From Haloarcula japonica DSM 6131 (GTDB lineage: Archaea; Halobacteriota; Halobacteria; Halobacteriales; Haloarculaceae), in NCBI RefSeq assembly GCF_000336635.1, contig NZ_AOLY01000040.1, positions 89,544 to 153,543 on the forward strand: a stretch of DNA of 64,000 nucleotides, read 5' to 3'. Made by a program: the position numbers and the translations under genes. This document shows positions 30,036 through 59,180 of the stretch, piece by piece. The notes beneath the pieces were generated by a model. It was not told the origin of the DNA. It was given only the letters and a program-made list of their open reading frames with translations, and made no database searches. Numbering within the stretch: the stretch's first letter is position 1; every line of letters starts with the position of its first letter.

Positions 30036-31064
30036 ATGCCCCAAGGTCTCGATGTCGGTACGATGAACCTCCTGTCTGCACGGCAAGATGGTAACGAAAC
30101 GGTATTCGTGCAGCAGCGGAACTCCTTCGTCGAAATTGACTACAGCGACATGGCCGAACAGATGCTGTCGAGAAGTGATGTTCTCCACATCCGCAAGGAT
30201 GATCGGGTCTACATCGTTGGCGATGACGCCCTGAATTTCGCGAACATCTTCAGTGAGGAGACACGCCGCCCGATGCAAGCCGGGATTCTCTCAAGCGACG
30301 AGCAATCAGCTATTCCGATGATTAAGCTCATTACTGAACAGGTGGTGGGACAGCCGGAGTTCCCGAATGAGCGCCTGTTTTTCTCGGTTCCCGCGGACCC
30401 AATCGATGCCGATGTCTCGACGCTATATCATCAAAAGACGATTGAATCCCTCCTCACTGATATGGGCTACAGCCCGGAACCGATCAATGAAGGGATGGCC
30501 GTCATCTACTCCGAGCTTGCCAACCGTGAGTTCACTGGCCTCGGTATCAGCTTTGGCGCTGGGATGACCAACGTCTGTCTGTCATACTATGCAGTCCCCG
30601 TAATGAAGTTCTCCATCGCACGCGGTGGCGACTGGATCGACGAGCAGGCTGCACAGGCGACTGGCACGCCCGTCGATAAGGTCACCTCGGTTAAAGAAGA
30701 GGACTTCGCACTCAACTTCGAGACGGACGTCGGCGGTATCGAAGGTGCACTGAGTATCTATTACGACAATCTCCTCGACTATGTCATCGAGAACATCATC
30801 AGTGAAGTCGATGAGGAAGATGTCGAGGAGGGACTGGATGTCCCGGTTGTCGTGACTGGTGGGACATCCAGTCCTGACGGCTTCGAAGAGTTGTTCGCCG
30901 AACGGATCAACGAATCCGAGATACCGTTCTCAATCAGCGACGTCCGCCAAGCCGAGAATCCACTATATAGTGTCGCACAGGGCGCACTCGTCGCAGCGCG
31001 GTCGGAAGAAGAGCGCGAGGGGCAAAACGAGCAGGCCGAAGAATCTGAAACCCCCGCCGAATAA
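30036..31064 (+). CDS. Haloarchaeal actin homologue (salactin/volactin type)
   Basis: A 342-residue actin/MreB-superfamily ATPase. The phosphate-1 loop is [12 protein letters not shown], phosphate-2 is [14 protein letters not shown], and the adenosine motif is [13 protein letters not shown]. An acidic C-terminal tail follows residue 320. Salactin and volactin, its closest described kin, form dynamic filaments that affect shape and growth. A GGGAGGA ribosome site lies just before the ATG. It sits downstream of the tetraspan membrane protein (166 bases), and is followed by a convergent zinc-ribbon gene. A plasmid-borne paralogue may serve this replicon or a specialised form of the cell. Confidence 0.82.
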
Positions 31065-31628: not shown

Positions 31629-31721
31629 ACTAGCTCATCCGTGCCTCTGCTATACAATGGTTCCGTCAGCTATCGCCGTCTAGGGAACGAGTTATGAGAT
31701 GGGCGACCGATGTTGGTGGTG

Positions 31722-32408
31722 ATGCCGGAGATCGAGATTACGGACGCACAACAGGATGACTTGACGTCGATTCGGGAGGATCTTGAAGACGCGTTCATCG
31801 AGACGTACGGGCACATTCGTACGCAAGATGTCGTTGCCTACCTCCTCGATACATACACACCGCCGGACCAACTGGAAGACGAGCAAGGCCTGAGCCGTAC
31901 CGACTACGAACGAATCGCCTCGGCTGAGTATCCGGAACTCCAACACATCGCGTCCGAGGTGCCGGAAGTTCCCGGAAGCGGGATTGAGGCCGACGAGATG
32001 CGGGGGAAGCTACTCGCAGCACTTGGAACGAGTGAACTTGCGGATCGCCTCGCGGATATCGAACCTGAAAGAAGAGCGAACGAGAGGGGTGAGGAGGCGG
32101 CCGCCGGCCCAACTATGCCAGGGGACGCGCCAGACGACGGACGTGGCGTCGCACAGCACGATACGCCGACACAAACTACACCGTCATCTGAGACCATCGA
32201 AAGCGCCGGCGCGGCCGAGTCGGACGCGGCAGCTGACGACACTCCGAGCGCCCTTTCCGCTGCCAACCGTTTGCTAACCGAACATGACGAGAAGTGGACC
32301 CGGTCAGACGAGAACGACGAACCATACGAAGTCACACTTCCCGACGGTTCAACGGTGAGCGTCCGGACGAGAGACGACGTACGAAAACTGCTGTTTCAAA
32401 ACTACTGA
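31722..32408 (+). CDS. Hypothetical protein with helical head and disordered middle (228 aa)
   Basis: A 228-residue protein not recognised. The N-terminal 95 residues look helical (ITDAQQDDLTSIREDLEDAF, VVAYLLDTY). Residues 100-180 are Ala/Asp/Thr-rich and probably disordered. The C-terminus forms a small folded piece (YEVTLPDGSTVSVRTRDDV). I use the ATG at 31722 rather than an upstream TTG. It shares a 93-base divergent gap with the zinc-ribbon gene, suggesting joint control near the actin homologue. Confidence 0.7.
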   Translation: MPEIEITDAQQDDLTSIREDLEDAFIETYGHIRTQDVVAYLLDTYTPPDQLEDEQGLSRTDYERIASAEYPELQHIASEVPEVPGSGIEADEMRGKLLAALGTSELADRLADIEPERRANERGEEAAAGPTMPGDAPDDGRGVAQHDTPTQTTPSSETIESAGAAESDAAADDTPSALSAANRLLTEHDEKWTRSDENDEPYEVTLPDGSTVSVRTRDDVRKLLFQNY

Positions 32409-33917: not shown

Positions 33918-34319
33918 TCATTTGAGATGCTCGTAGCCCCAACTCTCCAGTATTGAAGCCACAGTGTCGGGATTCTCTGCCGCCAGTTCGACGAACGCCT
34001 CACGCAGATCCGTTACCGAGACATCCTTTGATCGCATACCGAGTTCATCGGCCACGTCAGCCCTCACTTGGTCCTCTAATTCGGCGTATTCGTCACGGAG
34101 GAAAGCGACGTGTTCGTTATCTCGATCTTCTTTGACCGTCTGCCGGCGAATGACGTACGGGATTTCGTCTGTACTCATGCTGTCAGTGGTGTCGCTTTCG
34201 GATTCGGATTGAGAGCCGGCTGTCGTCTCAGGTGTTGTCTCCAGTGCCGGGTCGTCTTGCTCGTCGGTCGTATCCTCGGCGAACGGGTCCTCTCCGGGGC
34301 CTTCTTTCATTCCCGCCAT
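33918..34319 (-). CDS. ParA partner protein, copy 1 (133 aa)
   Basis: A 133-residue protein coded directly after parA copy 1 with no gap (TAA then ATG). The first 50 residues are acidic and low-complexity. The C-terminal 80 form a conserved domain: IPYVIRRQTVKEDRDN, then helices ending ILESWGYEHL. The same domain ends the 172-residue partner of the second parA (56793-57311): PY-(V/F)-hydrophobic-RR, RDN, ADELG/ASELG, TD-x-RE and a final GY. It is not a ParB or ribbon-helix-helix protein that I recognise. By position it is the likely DNA-binding or adaptor subunit of the partition complex. Confidence 0.72.
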   Translation of the reverse strand: MAGMKEGPGEDPFAEDTTDEQDDPALETTPETTAGSQSESESDTTDSMSTDEIPYVIRRQTVKEDRDNEHVAFLRDEYAELEDQVRADVADELGMRSKDVSVTDLREAFVELAAENPDTVASILESWGYEHLK

Positions 34320-35189
34320 TTACGCCACCTCCTCGATAGCGCCGGGTTCCGGTGGGTTCGGGGCTTCAATCCCGGCTTGTGCTTCCAGGTAGCGAGCCAA
34401 TCGGTCGTATTGTGCCAACGTTTCGACCTCGTAGTCACGTCGGCGGTCGCGATGATCCCGGATGTACGTGAACGCCGAACACTGCTGTGCCCACGAACCT
34501 TCCATCAGGGAAGTACGGTCGCCGAAGATCTCTGGCGTCGAATACGGGATCTCGTTAAGGATGCGCTTCTGGTCGTTCGTTCCCTTCACGCCGACTGGGA
34601 CGGCGGCAAGGACGCCCACATCGATTTCAAGCGTGTCTTCAAGCCCGGAAACGAGCTGTTCTAACCCCTCAACAGCGGCTTGGCCCTTCGCGCTCGGTTC
34701 GACTGGGATAACCAACGACCGTGTGGCGTTGATAGCGTTGTGTAGGTGTGGGCCTTCCGTCGCCGGAGGGTCACAAATCAGCACATCGTACTCGTCACGA
34801 ACGCCAGCATCGGCAAGCGTGCTGAGTAACGCGGCGTGAATATTGAACGCATCCCCGACAGCGGCAGCCTGGTCCTGTTCGCGGCGGAGCCAGTCCCCGA
34901 GATCGGCGAGTTGGTTGTGTTCAGCGATGACGTCGACGCCGTGTTCAGCGGTGACGATGAGGTCCTCAAAGTCACCTTTGGGCCGGTTGATCATATGCCG
35001 GGCGAGATGGTCGACGTCTTTCGAGCGGTCCTTGTCGACGCCAAACAGCCGCGAGAGATTCCCCTCTTGCGGATCTAGTGGGACGACCAGTGGCTTGAGA
35101 CCGGCGCGGGCGTGCGCAACGGCGAGGTTCGCGGCGGTCGTCGTCTTGCCGACGCCGCCGGCCTCGCTGTAGGTGCTGTATGAGAGCAT
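34320..35189 (-). CDS. parA: ParA-family partition ATPase, copy 1
   Basis: A 289-residue ParA/MinD-type ATPase for plasmid segregation. The Walker A region is SEAGGVGKTTTAANLAVAHA: the catalytic loop is kept, but the signature lysine of KGGxGKT is replaced by Ala. Walker A' VVPLDPQEGNLS and Walker B DVLICDPPATEG follow. TTATTTG 25-31 bases before the ATG is a leaderless TATA box, and the 13-base repeat array begins only 8 bases further upstream. Followed without a gap by its partner. Length is as expected for a small chromosomal-type ParA without an N-terminal HTH. Confidence 0.88.
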   Translation of the reverse strand: MLSYSTYSEAGGVGKTTTAANLAVAHARAGLKPLVVPLDPQEGNLSRLFGVDKDRSKDVDHLARHMINRPKGDFEDLIVTAEHGVDVIAEHNQLADLGDWLRREQDQAAAVGDAFNIHAALLSTLADAGVRDEYDVLICDPPATEGPHLHNAINATRSLVIPVEPSAKGQAAVEGLEQLVSGLEDTLEIDVGVLAAVPVGVKGTNDQKRILNEIPYSTPEIFGDRTSLMEGSWAQQCSAFTYIRDHRDRRRDYEVETLAQYDRLARYLEAQAGIEAPNPPEPGAIEEVA

Positions 35190-35227
35190 AGCTGGTTGTT
35201 ATAGTCTCCCGTTCAAATAACCTATTG

Positions 35228-35318
35228 GTTGAATCTTCTGGTTCAATCAATCGGTTCAACTAATCGATTCAACGAGGTGGTTCAATCGATTGGTTCAACC
35301 ATGCAGTTCAAGTAGCAA
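35228..35318. repeat. 13-base repeat array upstream of parA copy 1
   Basis: Seven direct repeats with core GGTTCAAY start their GTTCAA (or GTTGAA, GATTCAA-shifted variants) at 35228, 35241, 35254, 35267, 35280, 35293 and 35306, exactly 13 bases apart. An extra GTTCAA at 35211 is out of register, next to the TATA box. This is the likely centromere (parS-like site) and also an operator for parA, because it abuts the promoter. Confidence 0.75.
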
Positions 35319-35435: not shown

Positions 35436-36647
35436 ATGGGTTCGGAGCCGGGGCCGACACACACGTCGCTAGAGACTCTGCAGGAAGCACTCCAAACGGA
35501 GCGAATCACCTACGTCGATACACTGAACGAGGATATCGGCGCGGTCGTCGAGAGCGCGGACCAGCTCGCCTTCGATTACGTCGTCGGTGATATCTCCGAC
35601 TATGGTGTGTCCTCGAACGACCATGTCCACCTCGATCTGGTCCACGGGGGTTCGACGATCCACTGCGTGCTCTTTGAGTACAAACGATCGACCATCGACA
35701 CCACAATCGAGGATGGGATGCAGGTAGCTGTCAAAGGCTCACTGTCGTATTACGAAGACGGGGGCAACGTTTCCGTCATCATCGAAGACATTGTGGAGGT
35801 CGGTGAGGGTACCTACCAGCAGATCTACGAGCAAAACAGGGAACTGCTGGACTCGGATGGATTGCTCGATCCGGAGCACAAGCAAGCCCTGCCGGACTTC
35901 CCAGAACGAATCGGGATCGCGACCAGTGCGACGAGCGATGCCCGTATGGATGCAATCACCAGTATTCACGAGCGGTATCCCGACGTTGATATCGTCGTCC
36001 AGAACACGAGCGTTCAGGGCGACAACGCGATGATGTCGATCATGGGTGCGATAAGTAAACTCGATGACGACCCGTTGATCGACGTTATCGTTCTTACTCG
36101 TGGTGGTGGGTCCGACAAGCATCTCCGGGTGTTCAACGAAACGCCGCTCTGCCGTGTTATCCACAAAACCGAGACACCAATCGTAGTTGGGGTCGGCCAC
36201 GAGAACGACCGAACACTGGCCGATGAAGTGGCTGACAGACGAGTGATGACACCGACCGAGGTGGGCACCATCGTTCCGGAGCGGACAACACTAGACGCGG
36301 AACTAGAAACGCTCGAAGAGCGTTTCAACACAGCCTACACAGAGACCGTCGAAACGACGCTAGAGATGATGGATTCCCGACTCACCCAAGCCTACAGACG
36401 GACCGTCGAATCCGATCTGTCCTCGTTCGAAGCCGAGCTTGACCGCACATACGACACGCACGTTCGCGATGAACTGACCGATTTCGAGAACCGGCTAGAG
36501 CAAGCACGAACCCAGTACGATCAGCAGCGGAAACGAAAACAGGCGGCCGCAGCCCATCGCCGCCAGCGTCGACGGCTGCTGCTTGTCCTGCTCGCGCTGG
36601 GCCTGCTTGTTGTGGCTCTGCTCCTGTACATTCTGCTTCCACTATGA
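35436..36647 (+). CDS. xseA: Exonuclease VII large subunit, with C-terminal membrane helix
   Basis: A 403-residue large subunit. An N-terminal OB-fold (about 20-125) binds single-stranded DNA. The nuclease core follows, with PERIGIATSATSDARMDA, DVIVLTRGGGSDKHLRVFNE and PIVVGVGHENDRTLADEVADRR. A coiled-coil stretch (about 285-375) precedes a basic patch RRQRRR and a hydrophobic helix (LLLVLLALGLLVVALLLYIL) ending at the C-terminus, unexpected for a cytosolic nuclease. The GAGGAG ribosome site sets the start at 35436. It overlaps xseB by 4 bases. Role: degrading single-stranded DNA in repair or recombination. Confidence 0.88.
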   Translation: MGSEPGPTHTSLETLQEALQTERITYVDTLNEDIGAVVESADQLAFDYVVGDISDYGVSSNDHVHLDLVHGGSTIHCVLFEYKRSTIDTTIEDGMQVAVKGSLSYYEDGGNVSVIIEDIVEVGEGTYQQIYEQNRELLDSDGLLDPEHKQALPDFPERIGIATSATSDARMDAITSIHERYPDVDIVVQNTSVQGDNAMMSIMGAISKLDDDPLIDVIVLTRGGGSDKHLRVFNETPLCRVIHKTETPIVVGVGHENDRTLADEVADRRVMTPTEVGTIVPERTTLDAELETLEERFNTAYTETVETTLEMMDSRLTQAYRRTVESDLSSFEAELDRTYDTHVRDELTDFENRLEQARTQYDQQRKRKQAAAAHRRQRRRLLLVLLALGLLVVALLLYILLPL

Positions 36648-56792: not shown

Positions 56793-57311
56793 TTAATCGA
56801 GTTCTCCGTATCCGTCACCCCTCATGAGCTCTGCAACGTCTTCTACGTTGTCGAACGCCGCAAGAAGCGCATACTCACGGGCGTCCGTCTTCGAGATGTC
56901 GTCTGCTCCGAGCTCTGAAGCAAGCTGGCTCCGAAACTCCGCTTCCCGCGAGACGACTTTATCGCGGGCGAAGAGTTCGAGACGATTGTCCCGTTCGTCC
57001 CCAACGTTACTCCGACGCACGAAGTATGGATACTGGTGGCTACTCGTCTGGCGTGGTCCGGTATCGTTGGCGGTTGCGGCGCTCATCGTATTCTCTTCGT
57101 TGGTACTCTTCACTTCCTTCGCTTCTGAGGAGTCCCCGCTGTCATCTACTTTTTCAGAGGTGCCTTCCTTGGGCTCCTGATCATCCCCCTCCTCGTCCGC
57201 GATCTCATCGATTTCCTCATTGGCTTCCTCCGGCTCGTCGTCTGCTTCTTCCTCATCACTATCTCCGAAGCTGAGGTTACCTGATCCCGACTTGAAGGAA
57301 TCGCTCCCCAT
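56793..57311 (-). CDS. ParA partner protein, copy 2 (172 aa)
   Basis: A 172-residue protein whose ATG shares one base with the stop of parA copy 2. The first 90 residues are acidic (long Glu/Asp runs). The C-terminal 80 match the copy 1 partner (33918-34319): YPYFVRRSNVGDERDN, then FRSQLASELGADDISKTDAREYA and a final GDGYGEL. The order acidic tail then conserved domain is the same. It is probably the centromere-binding or adaptor component; no known DNA-binding fold is evident by eye. Confidence 0.72.
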   Translation of the reverse strand: MGSDSFKSGSGNLSFGDSDEEEADDEPEEANEEIDEIADEEGDDQEPKEGTSEKVDDSGDSSEAKEVKSTNEENTMSAATANDTGPRQTSSHQYPYFVRRSNVGDERDNRLELFARDKVVSREAEFRSQLASELGADDISKTDAREYALLAAFDNVEDVAELMRGDGYGELD

Positions 57312-58303
57312 TAGTCAGCCACCTCCGGTTCAGCGGTAAGGTCAAACTGCATCGTCTCTGTTCCATAGTCGTCGATATCTAAGACCAGTTCATCCTCAAC
57401 GTCGACATCGAACGTTTCAGTCGCAATGAATCCCGCCAGTTGCCAAAGTTTATCGAGAGTATCGAGCTCACGGTCGGGAACTCTGCGCTCCCCTTTCTTC
57501 GAGACCATCTCGCCGTCTTCTTCGTAGGTCTTCCACCGCTCCTCTACTACTTTGAACGCAGAGCCACGGGCTTCCCACATGGCGTCCATCAAACTTTCTC
57601 GTGACCCAATAGAGACTGGCGTTGCGAAGGCGTCTGTATTTTCGAACTGATCCCGATACTGCTTGTGGGCGTTCGTCTGGCCGACTCCGGATGGGACCAC
57701 GCACGAAAGCCCGATTTCGATATCCAGCGCAGTCTCCATGTTTACGACCATCTCTTCGAGACCATCAAGGCTTAGACTCCCTTTTCCAGCTGGCTTGACG
57801 GGGGCTACCAATGTCCGAAGTGCGTAGATAGCATTGTAAAGGAGATCTTCAGCGCGTGCGTTGGGGTCAATGAGGACCGCGTCGTACTCCTCGTTCAACT
57901 GCTCCTGCTCCCAAAGCAGATCATAGAGAAGTTCAAACCGGGGATACTCATCTCGGGAAATCCCTTTCATTCCTGTTTCGTAGGAAATCTTCTGCTCAAG
58001 GTTGGAAGTGAAGTCCCCCAGCATATCGTGACTCGGGATGATGTCAACACCTTCCTCAGCGGTCTCGATGAGGTCGTCGAAGTCCCCGTCTGGCATTTCG
58101 AGAATGTGCTTTACGAGATTGTCAGCAGCCGGGTCTCCACGGTTTTTCCCGACATCGAAGAGCGAGGTGAGGTTGCCTGTTTGTGGGTCCAGATCGATCA
58201 CAAGGACGTCCAGTCCCATTCGCTCGAGCCCAACCGCGAGATTCGCTGTCATGGTCGTTTTGTATGTTCCTCCAGACTCAGCGTAAACGACGGTCGTTAT
58301 CAT
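57311..58303 (-). CDS. parA: ParA-family partition ATPase, copy 2
   Basis: A 330-residue ParA-type ATPase. Its P-loop reads AESGGTYKTTMTANLAVG: the GKT is changed to YKT, and the signature lysine is Ser. Walker A' is VIDLDPQTGNLTSLF and Walker B AVLIDPNARAED. It is longer than copy 1 because of inserts near 110-135 and 235-265. The ATG at 58303, with GGAG just upstream, is preferred over 58315. TATATG lies 27-32 bases before it and overlaps the first repeat of the 13-base array, so autoregulation by the partner is plausible. Confidence 0.86.
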   Translation of the reverse strand: MITTVVYAESGGTYKTTMTANLAVGLERMGLDVLVIDLDPQTGNLTSLFDVGKNRGDPAADNLVKHILEMPDGDFDDLIETAEEGVDIIPSHDMLGDFTSNLEQKISYETGMKGISRDEYPRFELLYDLLWEQEQLNEEYDAVLIDPNARAEDLLYNAIYALRTLVAPVKPAGKGSLSLDGLEEMVVNMETALDIEIGLSCVVPSGVGQTNAHKQYRDQFENTDAFATPVSIGSRESLMDAMWEARGSAFKVVEERWKTYEEDGEMVSKKGERRVPDRELDTLDKLWQLAGFIATETFDVDVEDELVLDIDDYGTETMQFDLTAEPEVAD

Positions 58304-58323
58304 ATGCTCCCTCATTCGTTCTC

Positions 58324-58512
58324 CTGTTACATATATCTGTGTCAGACATTCGGGGCTGTTGCCTGTGACGGTTGTCTGTACCAAACATCTGTAACACCAA
58401 TCCGTATCAAGACCGGTACCAGATTGCGCCCGATCTGGGATACTTGTCTGTAACAATCAACTGTAATAGACATCTGTACCGAATGGCTGTGCCGGATATG
58501 CGTGCCAGATAT
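58324..58512. repeat. 13-base repeat array upstream of parA copy 2
   Basis: Direct repeats with consensus CTGTAMCNNNCAT start at 58324, 58337, 58363, 58376, 58389 and, degenerate, at 58402, all in exact 13-base register (the slot at 58350 is decayed). A second block starts at 58448, 58461, 58474 and 58487, again 13 apart, followed by a related CGTGCCAGATAT. The first unit overlaps the parA TATA box. This is the likely centromere of the second partition locus. Confidence 0.75.
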
Positions 58513-59180
58513 TTGGCACAGATATGTGTCTGAATGACCTCTTTCTGCCAGTTCGCACCGATTCCAGAACAGAGATTTGTTACAGATAGCGACTACATCT
58601 TTTGGCCTGTAATCAGTTCGATTACAATTAACTGTGTAGTCACCGGAACCGCCTTCAATGCAATCTGACCACCACTCTTCTACGTAATCAGCGATATGCT
58701 GATTAACAGAAGAAGGGTTGTCGTAGACTACGGGCAGAACTGTCGGTCATAACGAACGATATTTCAGTTATTGGTTTATCTCTTGATAAACCTCCACTCG
58801 ACCATGGTTGGCAACTTCTAATTTAGTGATCACTGTAATCTTAGACTTGTTCTCCCCGGAACTGTTTTGTTTGTCAGATTCAACTTTTTAGATAAATTAT
58901 CTGCTTTCTCAACGGACCGTTCTTCAGGATTCAGTTTTTTAACCATTGAACGTACTGATATCGTATCCGTACCTACTCTCTGCGTCACAACCTACAGGAT
59001 AGTAACCTGATCTCTTACACGTAATCGAGTTGTTGAGGTCCGATTTTCCGATATACGTACCGGACTGTACGTTACTTATTTCTCCATCTGTCGTATCTAT
59101 TCGAAAAGACGCCGTTCCGTGAGGGAGGGGGGAAACAGATCGAGTTGGAAAACTGGTATTCACACTGTTCCGGTGTCAAA
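58513..59180. other. AT-rich stretch, no clear gene
   Basis: About 670 bases. TTGTTACAGATAG at 58577 is a stray inverted copy of the array heptamer. A minus-strand frame at 58939-59163 (serine/glycine-rich, two cysteines) could be the end of an exported protein, but lacks an ATG and promoter, so I do not call it. Confidence 0.45.

Follow-up and report, generated by a model that had tools for sequence, protein, structure and literature searches.

The window analysed in this study, a stretch of 64,000 nucleotides of the Haloarcula japonica DSM 6131 genome (contig NZ_AOLY01000040.1), carries on its minus strand a compact locus, referred to as locus 1, in which an array of short tandem repeats is followed by a parA gene and by the gene of a small partner protein (Table 1). 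The original prediction, made from the letters of the locus, had described a ParA without the signature lysine, a gap-free downstream partner of 133 residues with an acidic head and a conserved C-terminal domain, and seven repeats in exact 13-base register abutting the parA TATA box, and every one of these features was recovered. The log-likelihood ratio (LLR) of the array is 39.6, while none of 300 dinucleotide shuffles exceeded 9.7, and Tandem Repeats Finder also returned a period of 13 at this locus. The xseA gene, whose product has a C-terminal hydrophobic segment, diverges from parA across the array, and a volactin gene, with an acidic open reading frame as its neighbour, is located at a distance of 3 kb from locus 1. 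No Rfam match was found in window positions 29000-60000.

Table 1. Features of the two par loci of the window and of neighbouring genes
Feature	Position	Strand	Description
Volactin gene	30036-31064		haloarchaeal actin homologue; PF25216, E 2.7e-133
Acidic open reading frame	31710-32408		without family
Partner gene, locus 1	33918-34319	-	133 aa; first base directly after parA stop
parA, locus 1	34320-35189	-	289 aa; P-loop SEAGGVGKTT
Eighth half-unit TTGAA	35212-35216	-	17 bp beyond array; overlaps TATA box
TATA-like TTATTT	35215-35220	-	-31 to -26 from parA ATG; abuts last repeat
Array, locus 1	35221-35311	-	seven 13-bp units, gapless, exact register; minus-strand reading TTGAACCaattgg; candidate centromere and operator
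xseA	35436-36647		exonuclease VII large subunit
Type 2 partner gene	56793-57311	-	172 aa; same family as locus 1 partner, E 8.6e-11
Type 2 parA paralogue	57311-58315	-	AESGGTYKTT; signature Lys absent, invariant KG kept
Type 2 array core	58434-58537	-	13-bp, ACAGAT/ATCTGT-type repeat, unlike locus 1; L003, z13 = 8.6

The position of the TATA-like element coincides with the T-rich TATA peak of the pooled promoter of 89 related loci. Close Haloarcula relatives, whose partners are 93-95% identical, carry 7 to 10 units in the identical 13-bp frame, anchored at equal distance from the parA ATG, thus units are gained or lost whole. A triple GTTCAA at 13-bp spacing was found in 4 of 31 genomes, namely the window genome and three others of its genus, and only at locus 1. 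In 67 of the 89 related-locus promoters a GTCTGAC element is present, in nearly every case 42-44 bp ahead of the parA start; at locus 1 of the window a repeat unit occupies its place.

The ParA fold was recognized by profile (PF13614, AAA_31, E 1.3e-20; phrog_164, ParA-like, E 4.1e-29), and the P-loop starts at residue 8, without an N-terminal HTH; at 289 residues the protein falls within the size range of type Ib ParAs, about 200-290 aa. Alanine replaces the first lysine of KGGxxGKT, and this position is Ala or Ser in 108/108 ParAs of the family (motif E-[AS]-G-G-x-x-K-[ST]), which argues against decay. Just two lysines are invariant across the family, K15 of the P-loop and K168, the latter within a P-x-x-x-x-x-K-G motif whose K168-G169 pair is kept in all 108 proteins, the diverged type 2 ParAs with SGGTYKT included. 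Among ParA relatives, the signature lysine is likewise absent from type 1 McdA, an ATPase of very high activity (PMC6328274, PMC8262871). McdA is a distant match of the present ParA, in which K168 probably does the job of the missing lysine. As no more than a lead, K168 may correspond to the replacement lysine of McdA.

The partner matched no Pfam, NCBIfam or PHROG model. Its acidic head opens with a motif, MKEGPGEDPFAED, that the original prediction had not noticed and that reads [MFL]KxGxGxDPFAD across the family, with K5 nearly invariant and G7 invariant; this motif has a conserved Lys and no conserved Arg. The acidic linker varies in length across the family and is predicted to be disordered, and the C-terminal domain spans about 80 residues (about 53-133) with invariant P, R, R, D, E and G. 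In type Ib partition systems a flexible N-terminal basic (Arg) finger of the partner acts on ParA (PMC5016525), and in McdB an N-terminal Lys is critical toward the ParA relative McdA (PMC12204374).

To place locus 1 in its family, 112 haloarchaeal loci were collected, 89 of which are non-redundant and served for the upstream-period statistics. A complete parA-partner pair was parsed in 108 of the 112, always with both genes on one strand, and the partner start lies at -4 relative to the parA stop in 84 loci, at -1 in 13 and at 0 in 9. The strongest upstream lag is 13, 26 or 39 bp in 85/89 non-redundant loci. Pooled over the 250 bp upstream of parA, identity at lag 13 reaches 0.408 versus 0.257 expected (z 47), with further peaks at lags 26 and 39 (z 37 and 32), while the 250 bp downstream of the partner show no 13-bp periodicity (0.259 versus 0.255); the median array LLR is 32 upstream versus 3 downstream. 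The unit itself differs between lineages, from TTGAACCA at locus 1 to TGTTCATT, CAGTAATACTG, AGTCTAACTA, TCTTAGAT, TATAGCTATA and ATCTGTAACAGAT, so the conserved feature of the array is its 13-bp period, not the repeat sequence.

Of 195 relatives of the window genome, 105 carry the partner family, as do 29 of 295 genomes in the phylum sample, each of which is listed under the window's own order. Haloarchaea are also the listed hosts of 132 plasmid records that contain it, often beside a gene annotated 'ParA family protein', and the family lies on known plasmids such as pNG700 (Har. marismortui), pHsi204 (Har. sinaiiensis) and PL100 (Haloquadratum walsbyi). Scans of viral contigs yielded only three related contigs, and phage records only distant KGG-type ParAs. 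This plasmid recurrence bears on the possibility that the array is an operator only, with the partner acting as autorepressor of a ParA that has a different role, and without assembly of a partition complex. In line with such an operator, the TATA box is touched at a fixed distance by the last unit and the half-unit; however, the arrays are long, with a median of 8 units and up to 25 scored, and 13-bp periodicity stays above background more than 250 bp upstream of parA, far beyond operator needs, and we therefore regard a purely regulatory array as unlikely.

Two proteins of the cassette could in principle be linked to the repeat sequence, and the family provides a comparison between them. Repeat similarity between loci correlates with identity of the partner C-terminal domain (0.65) and with ParA identity (0.57), both values being inflated by shared ancestry, as the covariation of repeat and partner is partly phylogenetic. 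In partial Mantel analysis of the type 1 loci, the correlation of repeat with partner domain was 0.41 when ParA was held fixed (reached by 0/2000 permutations), while that of repeat with ParA was 0.08 when the partner was held fixed, and this asymmetry speaks for the partner as the putative DNA-reading component. In per-residue mapping no single strand position added to what overall identity of the domain says about repeat class; the highest-ranking columns, K63, V102, F109 and N68, may be clade markers. Repeats of co-resident loci were not significantly more different than chance, with 1/18 pairs similar and 925/5000 permutations as low.

The same covariation weighs against reading the repeats as replication-origin iterons or copy-control/incompatibility repeats bound by Rep or Orc1/Cdc6. 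The layout is iteron-like and an Orc1/Cdc6 gene is present on the same contig (C40:49824), but this gene lies about 74 kb from the array and no replication gene adjoins the array in three annotated plasmid neighbourhoods. In addition, KGG-type parA genes go without repeats: the eight canonical KGG ParA/MinD genes of the window genome have no array (LLR 1-6 versus 39.6 at locus 1). An iteron function is thus highly improbable.

The original prediction had further proposed that the partner has a fold unrelated to those of known partners and had suggested structure prediction and a profile search of its C-terminal domain. When 83 partner domains were compared by hhalign with RHH_1 proteins of haloarchaea, the probability was 0.5%, and no sequence homology was detected. 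The novelty of the fold did not find support, as the predicted topology is RHH-like. In the AlphaFold2 model the first ~60 residues are unstructured and the C-terminal domain is composed of a strand followed by three helices, the helices with pLDDT near 90 and the strands with low confidence, the models having been built from only 7-8 sequences. Foldseek gave no significant match for either partner model, with no named fold prominent. The best structural comparison, a weak one, is with the TraM RHH domain (Z 3.3, 48 residues, 3.1 A), followed by plant TCP domains. Shallow RHH homology often escapes detection by sequence, and RHH is the usual fold of type Ib partners. In these a flexible N-terminus precedes a C-terminal RHH domain (PMC5016525). 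A strand-helix-helix order, as predicted here at low strand confidence, is also that of ParG/omega-type partners, and an RHH domain is our leading guess for the modelled partner.

The type-Ib-like layout proposed for the locus, with a small ParA without HTH, a small partner and upstream repeats, holds well beyond the window, since it recurs on haloarchaeal replicons with repeats that track the partner. The type Ib systems TP228 ParF-ParG-parH and pSM19035 delta-omega-parS share with it a small ParA without HTH, a small co-stranded partner directly downstream with a flexible N-terminus and a C-terminal domain, and upstream repeats overlapping the promoter (PMC5016525), the last known here as sequence alone. 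The haloarchaeal cassette differs in that its ParA lacks the signature lysine, its partner is unrelated in sequence and conserves a Lys near the N-terminus where type Ib partners have Arg, its repeat unit is 13 bp, and within the phylum sample it occurs in a single archaeal order. As we read it, the cassette works like a type Ib system; membership of type Ib is not claimed, because the ParA departs from the class in its signature lysine and the RHH fold of the partner is only putative.

Three further systems offer partial parallels. McdAB, which positions carboxysomes, also pairs a ParA-family ATPase lacking the signature lysine (PMC6328274) with an acidic partner that has an N-terminal basic contact residue (PMC12204374), a residue that is putative in the haloarchaeal protein, while the cassette adds a conserved C-terminal partner domain and a repeat array as the proposed DNA cargo. 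That ParA and partner position a non-DNA cargo instead, as the acidic, largely disordered partner and an ATPase without the signature lysine, like type 1 McdA (PMC8262871), might imply, is hardly credible, since nearly every copy has a 13-bp array upstream and this, with the location on plasmids, points to DNA as cargo. The archaeal SegAB system likewise combines a ParA with a small partner encoded in overlapping genes, and SegB binds DNA, as the present partner would; however, SegB is a structurally proven RHH protein that acts on the chromosome, with dispersed palindromes (PMC12284271), and neither family libraries nor structure searches linked it to the partner. In the haloviruses phiH1 and phiCh1 a ParA gene is followed by that of a small acidic partner in an overlapping frame, and the GTCTGAC element of related loci is also found upstream of their KGG-type parA (L120, L121), while the viral ParA keeps KGG and the viral partner is not similar by eye.

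The window genome harbours three copies of the cassette: locus 1, a second copy 22 kb away (56793-58315) and a third on another contig. RefSeq plasmids annotate relatives of the type 2 partner as 'acyl-CoA dehydrogenase', which is probably a propagated misannotation, since Pfam and NCBIfam gave no match to a model of that enzyme. With two par loci that carry different repeats 22 kb apart and an Orc1/Cdc6 gene, contig C40 is possibly a fused replicon. Elsewhere in the family (L118, ~2040-2890), an N-terminal region resembling a nuclease is fused to a second partner-like domain that follows it, immediately upstream of another par locus and its array.

Taken together, we consider it likely that locus 1 is an active plasmid-partition cassette of the ParABS kind with type-Ib-like architecture. 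In the mechanism proposed with it, partner dimers would bind the 13-bp array side by side via the C-terminal domain, one site per unit, and the partner-coated array would constitute the partition complex; covering the promoter edge, the partner on the array would also repress the parA-partner genes. ParA-ATP dimers would sit on the host nucleoid, and the N-terminal Lys motif, at the tip of the flexible acidic tail, may contact ParA and thereby cause ATP hydrolysis and release, with the plasmid travelling along the resulting ParA gradient. Since each partner lineage has its own repeat sequence, co-resident replicons could be sorted independently. B-DNA makes one turn in ~10.5 bp. By geometry, 13-bp steps thus rotate successive sites by ~85 degrees, with about four units per circuit of the helix, which suggests a superhelical protein-DNA complex on this geometric ground only. 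The array, the missing lysine and the partner belong together in a branch of haloarchaeal ParABS systems that is apparently undescribed; no account of it came up in the literature searched, a coverage outside which most subscription journals fall. A bolder version, which we regard as doubtful, would make the cassette an archaeal partition class of its own, with the signature lysine moved to K168, a new DNA-binding partner fold, superhelical arrays locked at 13 bp, and repeat-partner specificities that are co-diversified and mutually exclusive.

The simultaneous segregation of a chromosome and several megaplasmids in halophilic archaea is listed among the open questions; halophiles are also polyploid, and it is thus not established that they need active partition (PMC5120986). 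To the question of segregation the cassette contributes genes together with candidate centromeres and a specificity code, and its ParA proteins form a second group without the signature lysine, with K168 as the candidate replacement residue. The family offers more than 80 natural partner-array pairs, with a single geometry and many sequences, and the combination of fixed spacing with a partner-dependent repeat sequence points to a way in which a single cell might distinguish its several plasmids.
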